Shown here one piece after another: positions 3,265 through 34,166 of a stretch of 35,329 bases of DNA. Under the pieces are notes generated by a model. The model searched no databases and was not told where the DNA came from. It saw only the letters and a list, made by a program, of their open reading frames with translations. The stretch spans positions 1 to 35,329 of IMG/VR virus record IMGVR_UViG_3300005613_000216; one strand, given 5' to 3'. Positions within the stretch are counted from its first letter, which is position 1; every line of letters starts with the position of its first letter. The DNA is from a virus. The position numbers and the translations under genes were made by a program.

Positions 3265-5831
3265 AGATACCTACAGCGAATATAGTGGTAGCCTTTAACA
3301 AGGAAACCATGGAAAGACTCTTCTCATCGGGAGCCACCTACAAGAGTTTGGTAGCTGAGTTATCTGATGGTAACGAGGATGCTTTACTATTCAATAATGT
3401 TGCTAATCCCAATTTTATCTCGTTTGAGCACTCTCTAGGATTGGGTGGTGGGATGAAGATGGTTCTCACCTTTATTGATCCTAAAGGAGAGTTTGAATCT
3501 AGATTCGTTACTACTACTAATCCAGCAAAGATAATTAAAGAATTTTCTAATCCAGAAGCTCAAAGCACAAAGTCTTTTATTACAGATAAACCTGACGATG
3601 TAAAGCAAAGCCAGGAGGAGTATTCTAAAGAGTATGTGGCTCAGTATAAAGCTGAGTTAGAAAAAAGCGTAGGCCAAAGAGAGATTTATGTGGCTTATGG
3701 AACAGGAAATAATTTGGATCTTTGGTCAGGCCCTCATAGGACAATACTAACTAATGCCAATATTGATGTAAAAGGGGCTAGAAAGATAACAATTACACTA
3801 ACTCCAACCGCAAACGCTCTTGATATTGGACAGAGAAGAGGATCTTATAACGAAATAGTTAATTTAAATCTTCAAGGGTTAAAAGTTAGATACGCAGGTG
3901 AATCTCAAGAAGTAAAATTTTTAGATAATATAGCATATGACCCTACAGAATACCTGGATATCCCAGATAAAAATAAAATTACAACATATAGAGACGAAAC
4001 ACAAGAAGCTCTAGTTGCGGCTGGCTTTTCAGAACTGTCTAGTAAGTTAGAGAGATTTGATTTTCATACAATAATTGTTGACGCCATACGCAGTTATGTT
4101 CAAAAAGCCACGGGTAACAAAAATGTAATTGTGTTACTTCCTAATATAAATTTGATCTGTCGTCAAGCAATTAATGACGAAGCTAGAAAATATGATTTGA
4201 TTCAATCAGCGGTGGATGCGGGTGCTCCTGCGGCTTCTAACTTGGTTAGTAAAGTTCCTGTGTTTGGTGGATTTTTATCTGATAGAGTTAATGATTTACA
4301 TGCTCAATCACAAACTACTCTAGGTAAAGAAGAAATGTTCCTTGAGGGAACTCTAAAGTCTTTTGGACTTAGGCTTCATACGGCAGATAAAGGAAAAGCA
4401 GAAAAACTACAAAAGCAAGCAGACCCAAATGGAATGCTCGCAGCACAAGCTGCTCATGAGCGTCACCCCGTCTCAAAGGATGCAGTTCAAAGCTTTTATG
4501 AAAAAAGGTATTTTACTGCTGTAATTGATAAAACTGATAGACAAGTCCCCGACCATACGGGAGTTTTAAAGACTATTTTTGATAAGATAAAAGCACTATC
4601 ACAAGAGTCCTATAAAATGTCTAGTTTAGCGATCATGAATGAAACTGACATTAATGTGTTAAAAGCTTGGGGATCAAAAAGTGATAAAAACCCTTGGAGT
4701 AAATTTTACACTTTAGCAGGGTACGATGAATTTACTGAAAACAGTTCTGCTATTATTGTAGGAGACTTAGCTTTAATCAAAGAGTATCTATACGGTGGAG
4801 TTGATTTAGATCAAAAAGCAGCAAACATAAATCAACTTAAGAGCAAAGCAAAACAAGTAAAAGAAGAAAATAAAGAAGGAGAAGAAGAGGGGCCAACATC
4901 AGTGGACTATTTGATCTCAGCAGCCTCTCAAGTCCCCCTTCATCCATTAGATAAAATTTTATTAGATAAAAAAGAGTACAATAAAAATATAAGGGAAATA
5001 GTAAATCCTGTTTTAAAGGGTGTTGGTGCTTTTGGAGATATCTCCTACTTACCAGATGATTTTGCTTATCAGGACGCATCTTTTACTGATGAGGAAAAAC
5101 AGTATATTGACGAAAATGGTATTCCTACTTTTAGGTACAATACTCAAAATCCAAACATACTAGACATGAAGTTCAAGTTTGGAGGCGTGTATTTCGCCGC
5201 TTTGAAAACTTTAGGATATCAAAAAGAGATCAAACGTCTAACGTCCGCAGTAGCTGAGGGGGTTCTTCCTACAGGTATTGGAACTTTTCCTATTAGAAGT
5301 AGAGGAGCAGCCATAGCTTACATGCTGACTAAGGCCTCTTCCATGGGCCTTGGAGATGACAACAAAAAACAAATTATCAACTCATTAGCTGCAAAGATCT
5401 CCCCAGAACTAGCAAAGGAAATGGAAGTTGATTCTTCTGAAGCTGCGGCAGATAGTATTGCGGCACTCCTTGAAGATGAGGAGAAGACTAACTTGAAAGG
5501 ACTAATATTAGTAGATCAAGAGCTCCCAGGGAATCCAAATAGTATTTTAGCAGATCTTAGTGAAGATGTATATCGCAAAGCTTTACAAATGAGCATCACC
5601 ACTCTACCTACTTTTCATATTTCAAGACCAGCTTCAATAAGTAGTCCATGTATTGTTTTTGCCCAAGACCAACCAATCACTCAATCTGTTCGTCTAGAGA
5701 GAAATCTTATGAACAAGTTTTTTAGTGGGCTCTATAAAATAATGGGATTCAAACATACAATCACAACTAGCGCCGCATCATCAGAGTTTAAGCTGGTAAA
5801 AAATGCGCCAGATTTTAAAGTAGAGGAATAA
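3261..5831 (+). CDS. Enlarged baseplate hub protein (T4 gp27-like)
   Basis: 856 residues, about twice T4 gp27 (391). The N-terminal 200 residues are beta-rich, with strands such as MKMVLTFIDPKGEF and GARKITITLTPTANA. The last 80 residues contain FFSGLYKIMGFKHTIT followed by SSEFKLVKNAP, the kind of strand pair that closes the hub barrel in gp27/gpD-type proteins. The middle, about 260-700, is mainly helical and carries a very acidic/basic low-complexity linker near 530-546 (KEENKEGEEEG). The gene lies between gp53-like and the gp5-like spike, where a hub protein is expected. In the particle it would form the ring between tail tube and spike. The large helical insertion has no T4 counterpart that I recognise. 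The hub call is reasonable, the insertion is unexplained. Confidence 0.6.
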   Translation: MKIPTANIVVAFNKETMERLFSSGATYKSLVAELSDGNEDALLFNNVANPNFISFEHSLGLGGGMKMVLTFIDPKGEFESRFVTTTNPAKIIKEFSNPEAQSTKSFITDKPDDVKQSQEEYSKEYVAQYKAELEKSVGQREIYVAYGTGNNLDLWSGPHRTILTNANIDVKGARKITITLTPTANALDIGQRRGSYNEIVNLNLQGLKVRYAGESQEVKFLDNIAYDPTEYLDIPDKNKITTYRDETQEALVAAGFSELSSKLERFDFHTIIVDAIRSYVQKATGNKNVIVLLPNINLICRQAINDEARKYDLIQSAVDAGAPAASNLVSKVPVFGGFLSDRVNDLHAQSQTTLGKEEMFLEGTLKSFGLRLHTADKGKAEKLQKQADPNGMLAAQAAHERHPVSKDAVQSFYEKRYFTAVIDKTDRQVPDHTGVLKTIFDKIKALSQESYKMSSLAIMNETDINVLKAWGSKSDKNPWSKFYTLAGYDEFTENSSAIIVGDLALIKEYLYGGVDLDQKAANINQLKSKAKQVKEENKEGEEEGPTSVDYLISAASQVPLHPLDKILLDKKEYNKNIREIVNPVLKGVGAFGDISYLPDDFAYQDASFTDEEKQYIDENGIPTFRYNTQNPNILDMKFKFGGVYFAALKTLGYQKEIKRLTSAVAEGVLPTGIGTFPIRSRGAAIAYMLTKASSMGLGDDNKKQIINSLAAKISPELAKEMEVDSSEAAADSIAALLEDEEKTNLKGLILVDQELPGNPNSILADLSEDVYRKALQMSITTLPTFHISRPASISSPCIVFAQDQPITQSVRLERNLMNKFFSGLYKIMGFKHTITTSAASSEFKLVKNAPDFKVEE

Positions 5832-23494: not shown

Positions 23495-26046
23495 TGGCTG
23501 AACAACAATATCAAGAAAGTAACTATCGTTTTACTGATCCTATTCGCTTTTTCAAAGCGAATGATCCTTACTACTTTGAAGTAGATAACATCCCTTTGAA
23601 GCAGCTTCAAGAAAACTGCTTGTGGCTAAAGGATCAAGTTAAAAAAGATACCAACAAGCTATTGGGTGTTAAGAGATCAGATATTGATGAGCTTAGACCA
23701 TACGCTACAGGTGGGGATAGGTTAGTCCGTGTCAAGCCAGGTAGATACACCTCTAGAATAAATGATGCTTCCACACGCGAGCCTCTGGCTTACCTTAGAA
23801 AGGTGATGGGTGAGGCTGTTGGCGATGTTGACGCTTGGGCTGCGGCTACACCAAACCCTGGCACTTTCCCAGGGGGTAAAAATGCTATCTTGGAGGCTGC
23901 TCTAGACAAGTTCAAAGAGACCACCGCTGAAAATGCTTTGGGTATGAACGGTTTGGTAGAGCGAGCTTTTACTTGGCCTGTTGTTACTTCAGATACGCCA
24001 ATTGATAACGATGGAGCGGATCTAGACACAACTAAATCCTGGTTGTCATTTGGCGGTGAGGATGTAAACACTCCTGGGGGTGGCGCTGGTATTTCTCCAT
24101 TCCCAATCACTGAGGCCATCGCTTGGGCAAAGTCTCAAGGATCCACCGTGTCAGAGGTTGTTCTACCCAGCTTTGAAATTACAAATATGAACAGTGGTTG
24201 GGCAAAGTTCCCCCTGACTGAAAGTTACTTTATCAAAGCTTGGAGAGGCGTTTCAAGACTAGCTATTGTTGATATTGATGATGAGATTACAGTTGAAGTA
24301 CCACAGTTTGATTCCACCGATTTCTCATACACAGGTGAAGATGGGCAGTCGGTTGATGTAACTGGTGTTAGCCAAAGAATTGATCTTGTATTCATCTACA
24401 GTAAGCCCGTTGATACTAGCTCAGTTGATACTATTCAAAATGGGGCAGTTGAAAGAATTACAAAGCCAACCCTGGGCATTGTAAAGGGTGCTGGAATCAA
24501 AGCATCGTTTGAAGGAAAGAGCACAGATCTTGCTGCTGGATACAAGGTGGACGCTAACGATTCGATTCTAGCTTCCCCTGGGGATCAAAGTAATACAGGA
24601 ATGGGCTTCAACAGCACTTCCGCAAATGATATAGCTTACCCAATAAGAGGCAGTTTCCCAGCACCCGATGATCTTTTGAACTTGGCTCCATTGATCTCTG
24701 AGAAGCTTGAAGACAACGCATATGAACTTGTAGGACAATCAATCCTACCTGTAGCTTACGTCTTTGTTCAAGACGGGTCACAGATTGTTCTGAGCACAGA
24801 CGTTGTAGATATTAGACCTTTGTTTAGAACAGCAGAGCTAACTTATAACGAGAGAGCAGGTATTGGTGCTGCGTTCCCACAACTGTCATTAGCAAACCCA
24901 GCAGTGGGAAAAGGCCAATTAGACTATGAACTCAAGAGAATGTACAACGATGTTAATACTAGAATTAACATTCTTGAGAATGAATCTGATTTTTTAGAAT
25001 CCATCTCTACTCTCGCCACTGGTTATGTATTTGGTGGATGGAATTTTGGTCCTGAGGGCGCATTGTTTGATTATTATCAAGGTGTTTTTGCTGCTGATAA
25101 TGATCCTGATGATGTTACAACTTTAACCAATGATGCCACCGCCTACATCAAATCATACATTAGAGGAAAGTATGGATTTGGAAATTTGACAAGCCAAATT
25201 ACAATTCCATCATACCCAGACTGGGATCTGGCTCAGTGGTGCGTAGAAGGTGATATTGATGCGAAAGGTTTGTACCCTAATGATTACATCAATACGTTCG
25301 TATCCACTAACAATAAAGATGCTAATGCTGATGATTCAATTGTAGCAGGTAGTTATGATCAAGGAGTAAACGCAGATGGTACAGCAGTTGGAGGGGGTCA
25401 GCCAACTAGACTGAAAAACTTTAGCAATGCTCAAAATGCCAAAGACGCTGCTACGGGTTTATTAGATTCAAGAGTAAACTTTCACTACATTTCTAAAAGA
25501 ATAAAGTTTAATAGACCAGCTTGGTTGGCTGATTACACTGTAGACACCACCTTAATAAACTGCTTGGCACAAAACAATTCAGGAACCAACTCAGATGAAA
25601 CAGCCGCAGGGTCTTATTTTGGATGCTGGGTTGAAAAAGGTTTTGATGAGTTTACTATATATGTTGCTTTCTCTGCTCATACAAATAACTTTGCATTTAA
25701 AGGAAGCAACAAAACCTCGCCAGGATCTCCCTACCCTGCTCCTAACTCATCAGTCACCACTTCAGGTGGAAAGAAAAAGAAGAAGACTACTACCGTCTCA
25801 GTTCAGGAAAGAGATGGTGGAAGATTCAGCGGCTTTATAGTCCCTGTAAGTGACATCCTTTATTCTAACACAAGCCCTGTAAAAGAGGCTTTTGCACAAG
25901 GCTACGCAGGAAACCCAAGGGTTGGCAAGTGTACATACCCCACTGTCATATGGAGAATTACGGGTGTTCCCCAAAACGCAATAAGTTTCTTATACGGAAA
26001 CCTTAACACACCACAAACTTCAGTAGTTAATCTCAAGAGTGAATAA
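23494..26046 (+). CDS. Virion structural protein with fibre-anchor motif
   Basis: 850 residues, TAATG-coupled to the beta-helix gene. The N-terminus FFKANDPYYFEVDNIPLKQL, followed by a helix with E-N-C-L-W-L-K-D-Q, resembles virion structural proteins I know from marine T4-like phages. It shares the E-x-D-N-[IL]-P-L-x-x-L-x-E motif with the preceding gene. The body is mixed alpha/beta. Near residue 759 a lysine-rich loop (GGKKKKKTTTVSV) interrupts a beta region. The C-terminus ends with CTYPTVIWRITGVPQNAISF. It is probably a peripheral baseplate or fibre-connector protein; no enzymatic or adhesin motif is identified. The common N-terminus with a neighbour suggests both occupy similar attachment sites. 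Confidence 0.6.
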   Translation: MAEQQYQESNYRFTDPIRFFKANDPYYFEVDNIPLKQLQENCLWLKDQVKKDTNKLLGVKRSDIDELRPYATGGDRLVRVKPGRYTSRINDASTREPLAYLRKVMGEAVGDVDAWAAATPNPGTFPGGKNAILEAALDKFKETTAENALGMNGLVERAFTWPVVTSDTPIDNDGADLDTTKSWLSFGGEDVNTPGGGAGISPFPITEAIAWAKSQGSTVSEVVLPSFEITNMNSGWAKFPLTESYFIKAWRGVSRLAIVDIDDEITVEVPQFDSTDFSYTGEDGQSVDVTGVSQRIDLVFIYSKPVDTSSVDTIQNGAVERITKPTLGIVKGAGIKASFEGKSTDLAAGYKVDANDSILASPGDQSNTGMGFNSTSANDIAYPIRGSFPAPDDLLNLAPLISEKLEDNAYELVGQSILPVAYVFVQDGSQIVLSTDVVDIRPLFRTAELTYNERAGIGAAFPQLSLANPAVGKGQLDYELKRMYNDVNTRINILENESDFLESISTLATGYVFGGWNFGPEGALFDYYQGVFAADNDPDDVTTLTNDATAYIKSYIRGKYGFGNLTSQITIPSYPDWDLAQWCVEGDIDAKGLYPNDYINTFVSTNNKDANADDSIVAGSYDQGVNADGTAVGGGQPTRLKNFSNAQNAKDAATGLLDSRVNFHYISKRIKFNRPAWLADYTVDTTLINCLAQNNSGTNSDETAAGSYFGCWVEKGFDEFTIYVAFSAHTNNFAFKGSNKTSPGSPYPAPNSSVTTSGGKKKKKTTTVSVQERDGGRFSGFIVPVSDILYSNTSPVKEAFAQGYAGNPRVGKCTYPTVIWRITGVPQNAISFLYGNLNTPQTSVVNLKSE

Positions 26047-28934
26047 TGAGTAAGGCCACGTTCGGATGTGGGACTTTTCTTCCAGGGGAAGGTCCTGGGA
26101 ATATTCCTGATTTTGAGGGTGGTGGAACCATTGATTCTGGTGGTGGCGGCGTCGTCGAACCCCCAGAGCCTCCTGGACCAGAGCCTCCCTTTGTTGATCC
26201 TGTCCGTGGTGATGTAACTCTCACAACTCCTGGTGCGGGTGGTCCTCCGCCTGGTCCTGACCCTGGTCCTGACCCTGGTCCTCCCCCTGGTCCTCCAACA
26301 GGACCAACTACGGGAGCCAGGGGACCAACTACCCCTGGAACGGGTCCTACAGGCCCTACAACTCCAGGTACAGGCGGTCCTCCCCCTGCTCCTCCAACAG
26401 GACCCACGGGACCAACTACCCCTGGAACGGGTCCTACAGGCCCTACAACAGGCGGTCCATTAGGTCCTGATTGTGCTTGTACCATAGAGAATCCTGATGC
26501 TGTTCCTAGCCCAATCACAGGGCAAGAAGCAGGGGTTTCAGTGTGGATTGTAGAGTATACGTTTAGTTGTACTGAGGATGAAGAAGGGCAGAGTTTATCT
26601 GATGTTATTTCAGGGGCTTTATCCAACCTACAAGCTAATAGTCCTAACAGCCCAAATCCAAATGTTACAGTTGTTTGGACCGTAGACCAAGAAGAAGTAG
26701 GATCTGGTGCTAGTCCTGGTGAGGACTGCTCTGAGGAAGTTCCTCTAGGGCCTCCAGGTATTGAAGGAGTATCTATTACAATTACTCAATGTACGGGTGA
26801 TTGTAATTCTGTCGTAGTTAGATTTACAAGGACTACGACAATTATTGATGAGCCAGATGAGCCAGATGAGCCTACTGATCCAGGTGTCATTGATGGTGGT
26901 GGCCCTGCTGTTCCTGGAGATCCTGGAGTTGGAGTTACCCCTGATAGTGATTCGGGGGGTGGAGGCCAAGGTGGTGGTGTTGGTAACAAGCAACCAAACT
27001 CTGAAAGTGGGGTTATCAGCAACGCTATATCTAAAGGTGAGATTGATCTAGATGACCCTGTATTTGTTCAAAATGTTTTAACAAAAAAGCCATTTGGAAT
27101 ACAAGACAGTAAGATTGCTTTTAAAACAACACCTGATCCTATCCAGTTGGTGTTCAATGACACTGGGTATACTGAGCTTTTTGATGGAGCGATTGATAGC
27201 AATCTACATTACATCTTAAAGAATAAAAATAACAAAGGTAATTGGGAAAGCACCAAGACTGCTGGTATAACTCCAGAAGTAATTTATGATAACCTTAAGC
27301 CTGAAGTAAAGGAAATACTAAGCCAGATTAAAAACTACGATGGAACAAACCTTTCAGTAAACCAAATATTCAATATGATTGGTTCCAGGGTTTTAGATGG
27401 TACTATTAGTAGGTTATCAGTTAAGTATTTAAAGAAGCTCGCTCAGGATAGCAAAAAGCGAGTTCCTGTTGTCATTAAGAAATCTACTCTTTCGCAGGTC
27501 AACGAAGTAGCTGCTTTGTCCTTGGTTGATAGAAACAAGTTCACACTCGATAAAGAACAAGTGAACGGTAGAGATAAAGAGATTTTAAAGAACTGGAAAG
27601 TTCTACCTTCTGATGTTGATATGTACGTCCCAATCACGATTAACGGGGTTGAGAAGAGGTATTATATCAATGACGATGGTACATTTATTGATGATAATTC
27701 ATTGTCATTAGAAGACGGGGACTTTATCAACATAAGAATCAGGGGTGGAGTTCAAAAGTTCTTCGCTAAGTCTGAGAAAGACCATGCGTTCTTACTGCCA
27801 GAGAAAACCAGACAAAAAGCAATCAGTTTACTTGGTGGGGAAGGTGGAAGAACCTTGATGGCTAGTGGATCTCCATCGGTAGCTTCTAGTATTGAGTTTG
27901 ATTCCTCCCTGTCTTCCCCAAGGCAAGAGTATTACTTGCTGAGTGCTAACTTAGAAACCTTAGATACTAAACCAGGGCTGGTAGGGTCTTTCCTGCTAAA
28001 AGACACAACCATAGAGTATGGAATCATGGACACTTCTACTGTCGCAGGCAAACAGGCAGCAGATGAGTATATCAAATACAAAGCAAATAAAAGAATTTTC
28101 TTGCTTGATGACACTGATTTATTGCTTGATTACGTTGAAAGCACAGGTAAGATTAGTCTTAAGCAGACAGATATTATCTTTGATTCCCCAAAGGAAAATA
28201 AGTCCATACCCCTCCTTACTAGACAAATCCCTTGGTTTATTATGCTGTACCCAACTAATAGACCAGACTACAACTTGTTTAACCAGAAGTCTAAAATTGA
28301 AGATATTCAGGGTGATGGAACGATCACTAGAGTTTTGGAATGTAAAACCTCTATCGTTCCAGAGTTCTCAAAGGGTCAGACGAATAAATTTATCAGATAC
28401 GCTACAGTTGACAGAGACGGTGTAGATGTCTACGGAGACAAGAACACTCAGGCTAGAAAGACTGTGATTAACGTCAACGATGCTGAGTTCAAAACTGCGT
28501 ACAGAGACAGGGGTGTTTTCAAGAGCACTTCAGAATATACGCACAAGAGACCTAAGACCAGCTTCAGGCTCCTAAAAGAAATAATTACAGAGCTAGACAC
28601 TAACTACGAACTATCTATTAATGGGATTGGAAAATCCCTAACAGAGTTTGATGTCTACAGTAGACTTAACCTAGAACAATTTAACAAACTTTCTAGACTA
28701 GAAAACTTTAACAGCATTAAATCTTCAATACAAAATGGATTGATTAACAACGTAAAGGTCGTTCCCGCTATCAGTAGAGCCGATAAAAGAATATCCTTTA
28801 GAGGAACCCAGCTTGTTCAAAGAAAACGTGGAGCGGGTGCTGATACGTTTAAATCAATCAAAAGAACTAACACAGGAGAGACGATTGTACCTCCTGATAC
28901 TGAAGGCCAAGGTGGTTTTGAGCCTGGTCGATAG
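26046..28934 (+). CDS. Virion protein with Gly/Pro/Thr-rich collagen-like segment
   Basis: 962 residues, overlapping the upstream stop as TAATG. Residues about 15-140 are almost only G, P, T and D, with blocks such as PGPDPGPDPGPPPGPP and GPTTPGTGPTGPTTPG. This is collagen-like but not a strict G-x-y array. A small Cys-containing beta domain follows (C-A-C at about 145). Next come an acidic DEPDEPDEPTDP linker and a second Gly-rich stretch to about 320. Residues 330-962 form a mixed alpha/beta domain with strands like DMYVPITINGVEKRYYIND and RQIPWFIMLYPTNRP. No catalytic motif is recognised. It is the last gene of the fibre cluster, before a promoter-like site. Likely an extended fibre or baseplate decoration with the flexible part as stalk. 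The reverse-strand open frame over the repeat is a composition artefact. Confidence 0.55.
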   Translation: MSKATFGCGTFLPGEGPGNIPDFEGGGTIDSGGGGVVEPPEPPGPEPPFVDPVRGDVTLTTPGAGGPPPGPDPGPDPGPPPGPPTGPTTGARGPTTPGTGPTGPTTPGTGGPPPAPPTGPTGPTTPGTGPTGPTTGGPLGPDCACTIENPDAVPSPITGQEAGVSVWIVEYTFSCTEDEEGQSLSDVISGALSNLQANSPNSPNPNVTVVWTVDQEEVGSGASPGEDCSEEVPLGPPGIEGVSITITQCTGDCNSVVVRFTRTTTIIDEPDEPDEPTDPGVIDGGGPAVPGDPGVGVTPDSDSGGGGQGGGVGNKQPNSESGVISNAISKGEIDLDDPVFVQNVLTKKPFGIQDSKIAFKTTPDPIQLVFNDTGYTELFDGAIDSNLHYILKNKNNKGNWESTKTAGITPEVIYDNLKPEVKEILSQIKNYDGTNLSVNQIFNMIGSRVLDGTISRLSVKYLKKLAQDSKKRVPVVIKKSTLSQVNEVAALSLVDRNKFTLDKEQVNGRDKEILKNWKVLPSDVDMYVPITINGVEKRYYINDDGTFIDDNSLSLEDGDFINIRIRGGVQKFFAKSEKDHAFLLPEKTRQKAISLLGGEGGRTLMASGSPSVASSIEFDSSLSSPRQEYYLLSANLETLDTKPGLVGSFLLKDTTIEYGIMDTSTVAGKQAADEYIKYKANKRIFLLDDTDLLLDYVESTGKISLKQTDIIFDSPKENKSIPLLTRQIPWFIMLYPTNRPDYNLFNQKSKIEDIQGDGTITRVLECKTSIVPEFSKGQTNKFIRYATVDRDGVDVYGDKNTQARKTVINVNDAEFKTAYRDRGVFKSTSEYTHKRPKTSFRLLKEIITELDTNYELSINGIGKSLTEFDVYSRLNLEQFNKLSRLENFNSIKSSIQNGLINNVKVVPAISRADKRISFRGTQLVQRKRGAGADTFKSIKRTNTGETIVPPDTEGQGGFEPGR
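26277..26449 (+). repeat. Imperfect tandem duplication in the Gly/Pro/Thr coding segment
   Basis: A 42-base stretch at 26321-26362 recurs without change at 26408-26449. The preceding 29 bases (from 26277) recur with one change from 26376. The first copy carries 12 extra bases between these two parts, so the unit is 99 or 87 bases long, always a multiple of three. The reading frame is kept (repeat peptide GPTTPGTGPTGPTT). This is the mark of recent slippage or unequal recombination that lengthens or shortens a stalk without frameshift. Confidence 0.9.
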
Positions 28935-29030: not shown

Positions 29031-29435
29031 ATGGATCATTACAGATTAAGTGACGAACTTCGTCAACAACTACTAGAGAACGCTGCCTGGGGTAAGGCTG
29101 GTGTTACTCCTCGCCTAGACGAGAAGAAATCAAGCCGCGCTGATGACAGTGAAATGCCCGCCAAGAAGAAGGCAAAGAAGAAGGAAATGGAAATGGAAAT
29201 GGAAGAGTCCGAAGAGGTCGAAGGTGAAGGTCTTGAAGAAGCCGTTCATGTTTGCCCCCTTTGCGTTTCTCAGCTTGACCAGCCTCTTGATGAGGAGAGC
29301 ATTCTTGAGCACCTTAACGTAGTTATGGGCCTCGTTGATCGTCTTACCCAACTTCAAGAGGGTGAAGAGGATATCGAGTCAGTAATTGACGAGACTCTTG
29401 CCGAGCTTCTGTTCCAAGACCTGGAAGAAGAGTGA
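29031..29435 (+). CDS. Acidic prohead-core-type protein with a Cys/His motif
   Basis: 134 residues. The N-terminal 35 residues are mixed. A charged low-complexity segment follows (K-K-K-A-K-K-K-E-M-E-M-E-M, then Glu-rich to residue 70). It then has H73-V-C75-P-L-C78 and a second His at 94, a possible metal site, and an acidic helical C-terminus (ETLAELLFQDLEEE). It is the first gene of the head operon, in the place where T4 has the small acidic core protein gp67, and acidity and size agree with a prohead-core role. The Cys/His site is not part of T4 gp67, so the identity is uncertain. A zinc-dependent assembly factor is an alternative. Only a weak GAG lies 8 bases before the start. Confidence 0.5.
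   Translation: MDHYRLSDELRQQLLENAAWGKAGVTPRLDEKKSSRADDSEMPAKKKAKKKEMEMEMEESEEVEGEGLEEAVHVCPLCVSQLDQPLDEESILEHLNVVMGLVDRLTQLQEGEEDIESVIDETLAELLFQDLEEE
29183..29200 (+). repeat. GGAAAT triplicate microsatellite
   Basis: Three perfect copies of GGAAAT, followed by a degenerate fourth, encode the alternating Met-Glu run of the first head-operon protein. Changes in copy number would keep the reading frame and alter the length of the charged linker by two residues per unit. Confidence 0.85.
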
Positions 29436-29454: not shown

Positions 29455-29955
29455 ATGAAAAGTATCGGAGACTTCGCAGAAAAGCTAATCCTAAACCAAA
29501 CTCAAAGCATTAAAGAGGGGAAAGAACTTCCTCCCCAAGCTAAGAGCAGTGGTTTAGCACCTGCTGGTAGGGACATCTCAAATGTTGAGGTTGATGATAC
29601 TTTCATGCGTCAGGTCCTGGGCGAAAGTTTTCACCCACAGGATACTCCACCCACAGACTCTATTCCTGAGCTAGTTTGGTCAGAAGCAGAATCAGAGAAG
29701 CCTGCTCAATCTTTAACTGAGGAAACTGCACAGCAACTTGTTCCTCTTCTAGAAGAGGTCAGAGATCTCTTAAAGGAAATGAGTGCTGCTGCCACAACCA
29801 CGGGTCAGATTGGTGCTAATATGACTGGTTCCCAAAGTAGTGATAGCTGCATTGGTAAAGAAGAAAAGAAGTATGGTTATATTTCTGCTCGCCCTGCTAC
29901 ATCAAAGAAAGAAATTCTTAAACAATCAATTAGAAACAAAGCCAGAAGACGATGA
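29455..29955 (+). CDS. Probable prohead-core or internal protein sharing a capsid-protein maturation site
   Basis: 166 residues from the ATG at 29455, which has AGGGGA 7 bases upstream. The open frame extends to an ATG at 29386 inside the previous gene, which is less likely. Residues 1-105 are acidic to neutral and partly helical. At 106-118 comes LKE-MS-AAATTTGQ, and the rest (119-166) becomes strongly basic, ending KARRR. The L-x-E plus AAATTTGQ sequence also occurs at the proposed maturation site of the major capsid protein. I infer that the prohead protease cuts here and releases a basic C-terminal peptide into the head. In T4 the genes at this position encode prohead-core proteins. No other domain is recognised. 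Confidence 0.5.
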   Translation: MKSIGDFAEKLILNQTQSIKEGKELPPQAKSSGLAPAGRDISNVEVDDTFMRQVLGESFHPQDTPPTDSIPELVWSEAESEKPAQSLTEETAQQLVPLLEEVRDLLKEMSAAATTTGQIGANMTGSQSSDSCIGKEEKKYGYISARPATSKKEILKQSIRNKARRR

Positions 29956-30371
29956 AACTGACGGAGGCCATTGATAGCATTACGGAAGCGCGAGGCTCTA
30001 AAGAGGGTAGAAAAGTCTACACCTCTAGAGAAGGAGCCAAGCGTGACGTAAAGAAGTCTTTCAAAGGCCGAGTTAGAACTTACGATAGTATCAAGAGTGC
30101 TTTATCAGATGGTAAGTTTGGAGACATATTTACTACCAAAGCTGCTGGTCGTTTGTATGTTATTTCTAAGGGTAAGTGGGGAAGCAAGAGCGGTAGAGGC
30201 AAGATTGCGAAAGGCTTCACAAAAGGTAGCGCAACTCCATCAGCAGATTGGGGTAGTGTCAAGAAACACGCTGCTAGAACCATGCTTAGGTATGGTAAAG
30301 CTTCCAACAAGTTAGCTCAAAAATACGGTAGTAGATCTATCAAAAAAGAACGAGGATTAAAGTACAAATGA
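29952..30371 (+). CDS. Small basic core or internal head protein with N-terminal targeting-like peptide
   Basis: 139 residues, very basic, dominated by Lys, Arg, Gly and Ser (for example KGKWGSKSGRGKIAKGFTKG). It starts MKLTEAIDSITEARGSK. This resembles the capsid-targeting peptides of T4 internal proteins, short N-terminal peptides that end at an L/I-x-E site for gp21 and are removed on maturation. Here I11-T-E13 followed by Ala would be the cut. T4 gp68, a basic prohead-core protein of about 141 residues, has the same size and place directly before gp21. I expect a DNA-binding or scaffold-core role inside the capsid. It overlaps both neighbours by ATGA. Composition and order support the class; the cleavage is inferred. 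Confidence 0.55.
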   Translation: MKLTEAIDSITEARGSKEGRKVYTSREGAKRDVKKSFKGRVRTYDSIKSALSDGKFGDIFTTKAAGRLYVISKGKWGSKSGRGKIAKGFTKGSATPSADWGSVKKHAARTMLRYGKASNKLAQKYGSRSIKKERGLKYK

Positions 30372-31801
30372 CACAGTTGCTCCAAGATGTATTTATTGTA
30401 GAGAACCTTCAAGTTCTTACCGAGGGTAAGAATAGTGACACCATGAGAATTAAGGGTGTCTTCGGTCGGTGTAATGAAAAGAATAACAATGGTAGAATCT
30501 ATCCTACCACTGTTTTTGAAGGTCAACTTAAAAAGGTTCAACCTCTTATCTCAGAGCGGCGTTTGTGCGGTGAGCTTGATCACCCACAAAACGATACCGT
30601 CAAGCTTTCAAATGCATCTCACTTAATTACTAAGCTTGAGATGAAGGGTAACGAACTTATTGGAGAGGCTGAAATCCTCAAAACTCCTGCTGGTCTTACT
30701 GCCAAAGCTCTCGTAGAGGGTGGTGTGAAGATCGGTATTTCTTCCCGTGGAATGGGCACTCTATCTGAGGACGCCCAAGGTAACAAGATCGTCAACGAAG
30801 ATTTCCGCCTAGTCACCTTCGATCTTGTTGCCGATCCATCCACCCGTGGAGCTTTCCCTGGCCTTTCCGAGTCTACTCAATCCCAGTTCGCAAGAGAAAG
30901 CCAAAGCAAGCTTGAGAAAGAGTCCAACTTTGTAACCATGCTTCAGTCCAAGCTGCGCGAAGCGTATGATCCTTGGATCGAAGAAGCTAAGAAAAAGAAG
31001 AAAGGTAGTTTCCCAGATCTTAATAAAGATGGAGAAATTACCAAAGCTGATGTGCTTGTTGGTCGAGGTGTTATTTCTGGTCCAAAAAAGAATAAGATGA
31101 TGGAAGCAGTTAAGGCTGAGGGTAGCTGGCACCAGATCGCTTATGCTCTTGCTGAAGCCTTTGATGATGAACTTGAAAAATCAGGAGAAGATGACCCAGA
31201 AAAAAGAATGAAAGCGGCTGATTCGGAAACCAGGGCTGCCAAGGCGCAAGTAAAAGCTGCTAGAGAAAGAAGAAAAGCCACTCAAGCAGAAAGAGAAGCG
31301 AAGGGTCAAGGCGTTCGAGGAGCCATCAAACAAAGAGTTGGCAAAAGAATTTCTCAGGGCGGTGAAGTAAAACAAGCCCAGAGACAAGGCGATATTGATG
31401 TTGCTAAAGCTCGCTTTGCTGGTCGTGCTGGTGCTGAACACGCAAAAGCTCAAGGCGCTGTTGAAAGAGAAAAGGCCCGCCAAGCGGCCAAAACCAAACT
31501 CGCAAAAGCGCGAGGTAAAAGGTATGGAGCTACTACCTTAGCAGGAGTGGCAGGCCAGAAAGTAATAGGAACTGCTAAAAGGCTTGGTACAAAAATGGGC
31601 CTAACGGCACATACTGAATACAAGCAAATTGGTCTTCACCTTGCCGAAGCTTTTGGTCTCATTGAAGGTGCAGATGCTCCCATGAAGGGTAGCCGCCAAG
31701 AGGGCCAAACTGAGGTTCGCAAGGCAAGCTATAATGTTCGGGCACACCGCAAGAAGAACCAAGCTGCCAAAAAACGCGAGAAGGCAAAACAACATCGTTG
31801 A
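30368..31801 (+). CDS. gp21: Prohead maturation protease (gp21-like) with EF-hand-like loop and long basic extension
   Basis: 477 residues; T4 gp21 is about 212. Residues 1-165 are the protease: CGELDHP with catalytic His72, GISSRGMGT with Ser125/Ser126, and FDLVADPS with Asp152/156, as in the T4 gp21 (S80) serine proteases. The added 310 residues contain LREAYDPWIEEA (196-207), a perfect EF-hand/dockerin-like loop D-L-N-K-D-G-E-I-T-K-A-D (217-228), LAEAF (261-265), then a helical Ala/Lys/Arg/Gln-rich region to about 410, a second LAEAF (425-429) and a basic tail. L-x-E before Ala is the gp21 cleavage rule. The extension may therefore be cut off by the enzyme itself and stay in the head as a histone-like protein. 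It overlaps the core gene by ATGA. Protease certain, fate of the extension inferred. Confidence 0.85.
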   Translation: MTQLLQDVFIVENLQVLTEGKNSDTMRIKGVFGRCNEKNNNGRIYPTTVFEGQLKKVQPLISERRLCGELDHPQNDTVKLSNASHLITKLEMKGNELIGEAEILKTPAGLTAKALVEGGVKIGISSRGMGTLSEDAQGNKIVNEDFRLVTFDLVADPSTRGAFPGLSESTQSQFARESQSKLEKESNFVTMLQSKLREAYDPWIEEAKKKKKGSFPDLNKDGEITKADVLVGRGVISGPKKNKMMEAVKAEGSWHQIAYALAEAFDDELEKSGEDDPEKRMKAADSETRAAKAQVKAARERRKATQAEREAKGQGVRGAIKQRVGKRISQGGEVKQAQRQGDIDVAKARFAGRAGAEHAKAQGAVEREKARQAAKTKLAKARGKRYGATTLAGVAGQKVIGTAKRLGTKMGLTAHTEYKQIGLHLAEAFGLIEGADAPMKGSRQEGQTEVRKASYNVRAHRKKNQAAKKREKAKQHR

Positions 31802-31880: not shown

Positions 31881-32525
31881 ATGAGTAATTTAAAGAATAT
31901 TGCTGATATTCTTCCTGAAGGACTTGATGAATCCACCGTTCAAGCTGTCTTTGAACTGGTGGATTCCACTATTAATGAGCAAGTCGCTGAGAAAGTTGGT
32001 TTACTTGAGGCCAAAGTAAACGCTTATCTAAGAACAAAGGTTGATCGGCTAAAGGAACAAGCTCTTGCTGAACTTAGTGAAGAGAACGAGGTTTTCCGCA
32101 ACGCTCGTCTGTTTGAATCAGTGAGAACTCTAATGGCCCTAGAAATAAATGGTGCGGACGAAGACAATGCTCTTTCTGAAATGACAAGCCAACACGGCGA
32201 ACTTCAGGAAGAGTTTGACGTTTTAATTGACCAAGTTAATGCTTTGGTAGTTGAAAACGAAAAGCTTCAAGGCACCATCAAAGTTCTTAACGACAAAGTT
32301 TCCATTTCGGAGGGGACAGTCGAACAGCTTGAAGGCCACAAAGCACAGCTTCTTGAAGAAGTTGAGAATTTAGTAGCTGCACGCGACGAGGCATTTGCTT
32401 CCTCTGAGCAAGCAGTAGTTGTATCTCAAGCCGATGTTGAGATCAACGAATCGAAAACTCAAACTGGTAATGAGTTTTTAACTGATGAGGTCATGAAGTT
32501 CATGCCCTTTTCCTCCCAAAAATAA
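31881..32525 (+). CDS. gp22: Prohead scaffold protein, T4 gp22-like
   Basis: 214 residues (T4 gp22 is 269), acidic and almost fully helical. Heptad-like stretches at about 40-70 and 105-170 (ENEKLQGTIKVLNDKVSISE) suggest coiled coil. Several L-x-E sites (LPE at 11-13, LLE at 41-43, LAE at 62-64, LSE at 98-100) fit the known destruction of gp22 by gp21 after head assembly. The C-terminus NEFLTDEVMKFMPF is a short hydrophobic end that probably touches the capsid protein. It lies between protease and major capsid protein, the same order as T4 21-22-23, and has a good AGGAG ribosome site. Composition, position and length agree. Confidence 0.8.
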   Translation: MSNLKNIADILPEGLDESTVQAVFELVDSTINEQVAEKVGLLEAKVNAYLRTKVDRLKEQALAELSEENEVFRNARLFESVRTLMALEINGADEDNALSEMTSQHGELQEEFDVLIDQVNALVVENEKLQGTIKVLNDKVSISEGTVEQLEGHKAQLLEEVENLVAARDEAFASSEQAVVVSQADVEINESKTQTGNEFLTDEVMKFMPFSSQK

Positions 32526-32540
32526 TAGGAATTTATTCAA

Positions 32541-34166
32541 ATGGAAATGATGCATCGCACAGACGATTCGCTTGTCCAGAAGTGGGAGCCTGTCCTTGAG
32601 GGCATCGACAGTGACTATACTCGTCGTATCACAGCTCAACTTCTTGAGAACCAAGCTAAGTCTATTGTCGAGGAAAGACTTTCTGAGGATATTACCGCTG
32701 CTGCTACCACCACTGGTCAGCTTGGTACTTTCCAAAAGTTCGCTTTCCCTCTCGTTCGTCGGGTTTACCCACAACTTCTAGCCAACAGCCTTGTTGGTGT
32801 TCAGCCCATGCAGGGTCCAGTCTCACAGGTTTTCTACCTTGGTAACGACCGTGCCCGTAATGGTGGTGGTGCTGGTAACGTACAAACTATTTACAGCAAG
32901 TACAACCTGACCTACAGAGGTCTGACTGCTTCCGCTATCGGTTCTGATTCTGGTGTTGGCGCTGCTGGCGGTGGTTTCACCCCCGACACTGGTGCTGGTC
33001 TAGATGGTGATGACGCTCAAAGCGGCTTCGACCTTTCTAACGTCCTCAACACCCTCTCTGGTAGCACCGAGATGGTCGGTGCTGGTGCTCCATCAGGCAC
33101 CTTCGGTGGTCAGATCGCTGCTTGGCCTAACGAGAACGCTATTATGGGCTTCAATGTTTCTGCTGGTGAGCGTCTAACTGGAACTGGTATTCCAGAGATG
33201 ACCTTCCACATCGAGCAGGAAGCCGTTGTTGCCAACACTCGTAAGATGCGTGCTCTCTGGACTCTTGAGGCTTCTCAGGACCTTAAGGCTTACCACAACC
33301 TTGACCTTGAGCGCGAGCTTACTGACCTTCTCTCGAAGGAGCTTCAGCTTGAGATCGACCGCGAGCTTATCGAAGATCTCCGCATGATCGCTTACGGTCT
33401 TCGTGATCGTAACCTTGGTGGTGTTGATCAGCGTCTCATGGATTCTGATTATGTTTCTCTAGGCACTGTTGGTGAGAGATTCCCTGGTCTTGGTGGAGCT
33501 ACTAACGCTACTGATGCCACAACTTTCGTTCCTGCTCAGTTCACCTACGACTTTGCGAGCGATGTCCCCACCACAGGCTCTGAAAGCTCTAACATCTTTG
33601 TTATTGATTTCAGTCAGTCAAGCCTAGCCCTCTACCCACGCCACGTTGGTGAGGTCTACGCAAACCTGCTCGCAATCATCAACCTTGCTTCGCAGGATAT
33701 TTACCGCACCACCATGCGTGGTCCTGGTAACTGGCTACTGACTTCACCACTAGTCGCTTCACTCCTTGAGAGTGCTTCCAAGCTTGAGGGCGGTGTTCAG
33801 CCTGCCGATGGTCCCACCAACATCGGTGGAAACTCAATTGAGTACAAGGGCAAGTTTATGGGTCGCTACGATCTATATGTTGACCCAATGTACCCAACTG
33901 ACGAAATTATGGTTGGTTACAAGGGTGCGAACGCTATGGACGCTGGTTACATCTACGCTCCATACATCCCACTCCAGCAGCTTCCAACTATTACGGATCC
34001 TGAGTCCTTCCAGCCCAGGAAGGGTATCCTTACCCGTTACGGTAAGGTCCAGATTGAGCCTTACAACAGGTTCTACCGCATCATCCGTATCATTGGCCCA
34101 ACTGCCAACTACCTGTTCAGCCCCTTCAGTAGAAACACCACCGCCCTGGGTGGTTCAGTGAGCTGA
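32541..34166 (+). CDS. gp23: Major capsid protein, T4 gp23-like
   Basis: 541 residues (T4 gp23 is 521). Signature stretches include FQKFAFPLVRRVYPQLLANS, LVGVQPMQGPVSQVFYLGND, and the C-terminal KGILTRYGKVQIEPYNRFYR with NYLFSPFSRN. The first 49 residues are helical and charged and end RLSE-D; L-x-E fits the gp21 rule, so mature protein probably starts at Asp50, just before ITAAATTTGQ. In T4 a 65-residue propeptide is removed. Codon use is more C-ending and G+C-rich than in neighbouring genes, as expected for the most abundant virion protein. AGGA lies 10 bases before the ATG. A strong terminator follows 23 bases after the stop. The fold is HK97-type, forming the hexamers of the head. Confidence 0.95.
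   Translation: MEMMHRTDDSLVQKWEPVLEGIDSDYTRRITAQLLENQAKSIVEERLSEDITAAATTTGQLGTFQKFAFPLVRRVYPQLLANSLVGVQPMQGPVSQVFYLGNDRARNGGGAGNVQTIYSKYNLTYRGLTASAIGSDSGVGAAGGGFTPDTGAGLDGDDAQSGFDLSNVLNTLSGSTEMVGAGAPSGTFGGQIAAWPNENAIMGFNVSAGERLTGTGIPEMTFHIEQEAVVANTRKMRALWTLEASQDLKAYHNLDLERELTDLLSKELQLEIDRELIEDLRMIAYGLRDRNLGGVDQRLMDSDYVSLGTVGERFPGLGGATNATDATTFVPAQFTYDFASDVPTTGSESSNIFVIDFSQSSLALYPRHVGEVYANLLAIINLASQDIYRTTMRGPGNWLLTSPLVASLLESASKLEGGVQPADGPTNIGGNSIEYKGKFMGRYDLYVDPMYPTDEIMVGYKGANAMDAGYIYAPYIPLQQLPTITDPESFQPRKGILTRYGKVQIEPYNRFYRIIRIIGPTANYLFSPFSRNTTALGGSVS

Follow-up and report, generated by a model that had tools for sequence, protein, structure and literature searches.

How proteases of the T4 type enter the prohead, and why they cut themselves at the C-terminus, has been described as a major gap (PMC9026906), and the question is raised again by the head-gene cluster of an uncultured phage carried on a 35.3-kb virus record of IMG/VR (IMGVR_UViG_3300005613_000216; its whole stretch of 35,329 nucleotides is referred to here as the window, and ranges written with two dots lie on the + strand). 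The cluster encodes a 134-aa acidic protein (29031-29435; net charge -24), a 166-aa protein (ATG at 29455), a 139-aa basic protein (29952..30371; net +26) directly 5' of the protease gene, a 477-aa prohead protease with a long C-terminal tail (30368..31801), a 214-aa scaffold-like protein in a gene separate from that of the protease (31881-32525) and the major capsid protein, which starts at 32541 and matches Gp23 of Pfam with E=3.5e-80. The protease gene precedes the scaffold-like and major capsid genes, as in the head gene order of T4. Just 5' of the head genes lies a 962-aa protein (26046-28934) with a Pro/Gly/Thr-rich N-terminal region, PPGPDPGPDPGPPPGPP, for which no Pfam match was found at E 0.01. 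The reading we favour, and consider probable, is that the protease is a polyprotein-like precursor, in which a core would be followed by a tail of capsid-targeting and cleavage tags and basic cargo.

Peptidase_S77 (PF03420) covers residues 10-173 of the protease with a match above the family cutoff (E=2.4e-23), and a profile search also matched PDB 5jbl, T4 gp21 (E=3e-15). The catalytic residues H72 (ELDHP) and S126 (SSRGMG) align with H85 and S140 of T4 gp21 and are invariant in 22 protease homologues; judged by its sequence, the window protein is a T4-type prohead protease of the gp21/S77 family. Named phages, the best of them cyanophages, show less than 60% identity to this protease and about 29% to the capsid protein, which places the lineage far from cultured phages, and a distant, uncultured T4-like phage is the likely explanation of the record as a whole. 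A scan of IMG/VR recovered 48 relatives in which the protease core is conserved while the tails range from nearly none to more than 600 aa. In one of these records (L046:4900-8500) the protease and capsid genes show several apparent frameshifts, which are probably sequencing or assembly errors. AlphaFold modelled the full-length protease poorly (mean pLDDT 57), and this model gives weak support to a helix at the tail modules described below.

An earlier note on this DNA had read four strings, LTEAI from residue 3 of the 139-aa protein and LREAY196, LAEAF261 and LAEAF425 in the protease, as copies of a single L-x-E-A-[IYF] pattern with, often, a second [IL]-x-E behind it. The strings do lie at these places and are not random: the pattern occurs five times in the 23 genes of the window (11,568 aa), and four of the five fall in these two genes (616 aa) against 0.03 after shuffling, a count of four being reached in none of 2000 shuffles of the two genes. 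We nevertheless rejected it as one motif, since alignments of 18 homologues of the 139-aa protein and 22 of the protease show that it mixes two motif classes, with the register wrong in the 139-aa protein and at protease residue 196. At the latter (LREAYDPWIEE206/AKKK, the slash marking the predicted cut here and below; 30953..30997), E198 of LREA varies, E206 of I-E-E206/A (codon 30983-30985) is invariant in 22/22 proteases, and past E185 no other residue is. The conserved cut-rule element, as placed by the alignment, is IEE206 and not LREA, and it marks a predicted autocleavage site that would end a mature core of residues 1-206 (30368..30985; pI 5.4). The 139-aa protein begins with a capsid-targeting-like peptide, MKLTEAIDSITE (29952..29987), with a predicted cut after E12 (ITE/AR). 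E12 of I-T-E12/A is invariant in all 18 homologues, and M1 is the only other invariant residue among the first 37; the first LxEA drifts to LTDA, LVEI, LVNI or IDEI. The second [IL]-x-E is the conserved element at both of these places; LAEAFDDELEKS lacks one, which also counts against a single pattern. The Q-I noted upstream of both LAEAF copies is real and belongs to a longer module.

L/I-x-E is the published cut rule of gp21 (PMC9026906), and several other head proteins of the clade carry such a site. The predicted N-terminal propeptide of the 139-aa protein, like that of the free genes discussed below, is 10-19 residues long and ends in L/I-x-E. The major capsid protein has LSE49 before DITAAATTTGQLG (32679..32687), a predicted propeptide cut where [LIM]-x-E is nearly always present in the aligned relatives. 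In the 166-aa protein, LKE108 stands in front of MSAAATTTGQIG (29770..29778) and is a predicted cut site within a conserved L-x-E-M, of which L and E are invariant in 34/34 sequences and M is found in 33/34, and a conserved N-terminal L-x-E in the 134-aa protein retains E16 in 35/36. Because these proteins share the site, the protease of this clade plausibly cuts after L/I-x-E. Right behind their conserved L-x-E, the 166-aa core protein (29770-29820) and the major capsid protein (32679-32730) have in common a stretch AAATTTGQ[IL]G, and the 134-aa protein contains an H-x-C-P-L-C knuckle (residues 73-78) that is invariant in 36/36. The 139-aa protein sits at the place of T4 gp68, a likeness of position only; it found no match in Pfam, PHROG or PDB nor among named phages, and a fold search with its (weak) model gave nothing better than E=0.5.

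The longer module of the tail reads [YW]-x-x-I-[GA]-x-x-[LI]-A-E-[AM]-[FL] and is present twice in the window protease, in WHQIAYALAEAF and YKQIGLHLAEAF. Copy 1 is WHQIAYALAE263/AFDDE (31115..31171; core residues 254-265) and copy 2 YKQIGLHLAE427/AFGLIE433/G (31607..31669; core residues 418-429). A relaxed expression in which the E was required gave 38 matches in 26 of 39 non-redundant relative tails against 0.12 in composition-preserving shuffles, the 38 being dependent events since the tails are related to one another. The other 13 tails, mostly short, gave none, which shows that a protease of this clade can do without the module. Could helical tails rich in Lys, Ala and Glu simply give LxEA strings by composition? 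Chance alone yields many short L-x-E sites, plain L/I/M-x-E sites being just 1.8-fold enriched in the tails (148 observed against 82 shuffled), and many of the L-x-E-A-[IYF] matches in five other contigs belong either to unrelated proteins or to the 134-aa protein, where the sequence reads CPLCTSQLxEAIDEE. Against such an origin stand the shuffled counts of the full module, a DNA pattern of it that matched 33 times over 39 whole records and not once as a reversed control, and its constraint: dN/dS, calculated for the window against three relatives, is about 0-0.15 in the modules, 0.25-0.44 over the whole tail and 0.03-0.05 in the core. The modules are thus under purifying selection inside a fast-diverging tail, as far as these comparisons reach, and chance or composition, which the shuffles and the reversed control rule out as the origin of the module, is left with a very small probability.

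A second question is whether the E of the module serves cleavage. Since the main expression itself demands this residue, the count was repeated with the upstream half only (YxxIG or WHxIA) as anchor: E then stands at +9 in 25/33 YxxIG and 11/17 WHxIA places, unforced by the search, and the residue after it is mostly Ala, Met or Gly. These frequencies speak against the modules being core- or scaffold-docking helices only, with LAE as a binding face and E206 as the one site that is cut. The eight YxxIG places without E do not resemble the module, but the six WHxIA places without E keep the remainder of it, as docking alone would allow, so not every copy is cleavable; under the precursor model these six would be targeting-only copies. 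In T4 IPIII, likewise, targeting and processing are separable, residues 4 and 7 serving the former and 8 and 10 being needed for the latter, and changing position 10 to Asp stops processing without abolishing targeting (PMC9026906). On balance docking alone seems unlikely, though it deserves more weight than chance, and the combined targeting and cleavage role of the precursor model is preferred.

A profile built from the protease tails alone found the module in many non-protease ORFs of the relatives; these ORFs are otherwise unrelated and mostly small and basic, and several have the module at the very start of the protein. In five contigs (306 ORFs) 23 matches were counted where shuffled sequences gave 5.5, and the carriers have a median charge of +0.086 per residue compared with -0.020 in other ORFs (p=2e-7); chance probably accounts for the few matches that fall in large or acidic proteins. 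The earlier note had named a lack of enrichment in head proteins as one outcome that would undo its proposal of a portable capsid-targeting and cleavage tag; the DNA pattern counts and the basic charge of the carriers go the other way. The proposal has good support as far as the module is a sequence unit, which recurs in many ORFs and moves between fused and free forms, its targeting and cleavage roles staying putative, and fails in its register at the two sites named above. In relative L028, for example, the gene immediately 3' of the protease encodes 101 aa and has MNNTYKNIGLIIAEALNLVE at its N-terminus; L016, L025/L026 and L046 have counterparts. In G036 (4262-5443) three consecutive genes carry the module near residues 15-17; these small basic genes (G036:C1:4262-5443) have a common N-terminus, I-[GA]-E-S-[IM]-W-x-x-Y-[KR]-x-[ML]-A, as if the module had been doubled. 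None of the remaining ORFs of the window carries the module convincingly, and the region that holds the free copies in the relatives lies past the window end. Searches of Pfam and PHROGs gave no convincing name to those free module proteins that were queried, scans with three free units found further copies only in records of the known relatives, and a two-copy consensus query against named phages returned nothing at E<=10, low-complexity filtering and the short query limiting the sensitivity of that search.

The clearest case of exchange is a separate 85-aa gene in L046 that shares 87% and 85% identity with the C-terminal 78 aa of the L028 and L016 proteases, respectively. A frameshift origin of this free gene was considered and discarded, as the gene has its own ATG and lies past the stop of another ORF read in that frame. 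Weaker pairs link the third unit of the L023 protease to a separate L016 gene (E=3e-7) and a tail unit of L007 to a separate L028 gene (E=2e-5). Because of these fused and free pairs the tail looks assembled from units able to stand alone as genes, and that module-plus-cargo units have moved between the tail and genes of their own is well supported at the level of the sequence unit.

The predicted cuts would divide the tail of the window protease into three basic units, against the acidic core of pI 5.4. Unit 1 (residues 207-263, 30986..31156; pI 9.7) includes a dockerin/EF-hand-like loop, DLNKDGEITKADV; unit 2 (residues 264-427, 31157..31648; pI 10.3) is a Lys/Arg/Ala-rich putative cargo; and unit 3 (residues 428-477, 31649..31801; pI 10.8, or 11.1 if cut at E433) is a putative basic C-terminal cargo. 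The loop DLNKDGEITKADVLVGR (30998-31066) gave a weak Dockerin_1 match (E=0.007, below the Pfam cutoff), and a DxDxDG-like loop is kept at the same tail place in several relatives. The peptides predicted to follow the cuts in this protease and in the 139-aa protein start with AKKKKK, AFDDELEK, AFGLIEGADAPMK, GADAPMK and ARGSKEGR. Long and basic, and with little conservation beyond its modules, such a tail might instead be a protease domain that acts like a scaffold or condenses DNA, its fragments having no separate role. Protease-scaffold fusions are known from lambda gpC/Nu3, P2 gpO and herpesvirus UL26. A C-terminal targeting role has also been proposed for the propeptide of the SPN3US prohead protease, but the window has a separate scaffold-like gene (31881-32525), and if the tail were just a scaffold domain, free-standing genes for its units would not be expected. 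We regard this explanation as improbable, more so than docking alone.

We return, then, to the polyprotein-like precursor. The layout of the module, which resembles that of T4 IPIII, and the packaging signal proposed for the C-terminus of the SPN3US protease suggest a targeting role for the repeated modules, which would guide the precursor to the core. The copies would be helices that direct their protein to the capsid and close with the L/I-x-E cleavage signal of the clade itself. By docking on the scaffold core, the tail modules, like the lone copies carried by separate small basic proteins, would bring the protease and the internal proteins into the prohead. On closure of the shell the protease would cut after L/I-x-E; the cut at E206 would free the acidic core from the tail, and those at E263, E427 or E433 would free basic cargo (pI 9.7-11.1), which might remain with the packaged DNA or leave with it on ejection. 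Core binding, cleavage at each site and the fate of the pieces are what we infer from the arrangement of the sites. More tentatively, at slightly less than an even chance, the protease may be a true self-processing polyprotein whose repeated tags take it into the head together with several cargo proteins, DNA-binding or ejected, and which then frees these by a cut after each tag, with lineages shuffling tag-plus-cargo units between the protease and free genes.

With one tag on the protease tail and on many small basic proteins, the enzyme and its cargo may be targeted by the same signal, and a shared tag makes the targeting question testable by defined point mutations. The tag also provides a sequence handle for internal or ejected head proteins without recognisable domains in uncultured phages.

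The capsid-targeting sequences (CTS) of T4 are 10-19 aa long (PMC9026906), and those of IPI, IPII and IPIII resemble the module as short peptides at the N-terminus of small proteins, with a Tyr/hydrophobic face and an end in L/I-x-E/A. The likeness to T4 targeting peptides remarked on by the earlier note is borne out, the hydrophobic/E layout being like the published CTS of IPIII, whose residues 4, 7, 8 and 10 are Y, F, I and E, and the layout of T4 IPII (MKTYQEFIAE/AR) is matched by the 139-aa protein (MKLTEAIDSITE/AR) and by free genes such as MNNTYKNIGLIIAE/A. In contrast to the T4 CTS, the module has a Y-to-E spacing of 9 rather than 6, the three extra residues amounting to about one helical turn, and it is also found internally, at C-termini and repeated within one chain, so that the protease copies at 254 and 418, being internal, are termed CTS-like only and their CTS function is putative.

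T4 gp21 itself shares with the window protease the S77 family, the matching His and Ser, the head gene order and a single element at its own C-terminus, ...DDAYMALAE/AMKKAL, that resembles the module; its homologues in 14 named phages are 208-230 aa long, compared with 477 aa in the window, and none of them showed a long tail with modules and cargo. The element is nearly the same in phage IME281, a variant occurs in Vibrio phage D486, and several other phages lack it. The gp21 end, DDAYMALAEAMKKAL (L119:1990-2025), could be its own targeting or autocleavage signal; gp21 autocleavage has been called a major gap and a CTS-like role suggested (PMC9026906). The protease gp245 of SPN3US sheds a 64-aa C-terminal propeptide at AQE-203, and when 26 of the 64 residues are missing it is active but not packaged, which led that study to propose a packaging signal at the C-terminus (PMC7411985). 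The window protease resembles gp245 and phiKZ gp175 in its predicted C-terminal autocleavage near residue 203-206, with which the invariant E206 of the 22 homologues is consistent; it differs from gp245 in that the SPN3US motif is A-x-E and, in the part of the account available, modules repeated and common to other head proteins are not described. Phages and conjugative elements also have polyvalent proteins (PMC5512222), multi-part proteins that are delivered, have been compared with polyproteins and are released by an embedded peptidase, but theirs are metallopeptidases and recognisable enzymatic domains, in contrast to a prohead protease and cargo without recognised domains. Among open-licence papers we found no description of a protease tail of this kind, and on present comparisons we rate the long tail, with its repeated putative tags and cargo, as a variation on the gp21/CTS system of T4.
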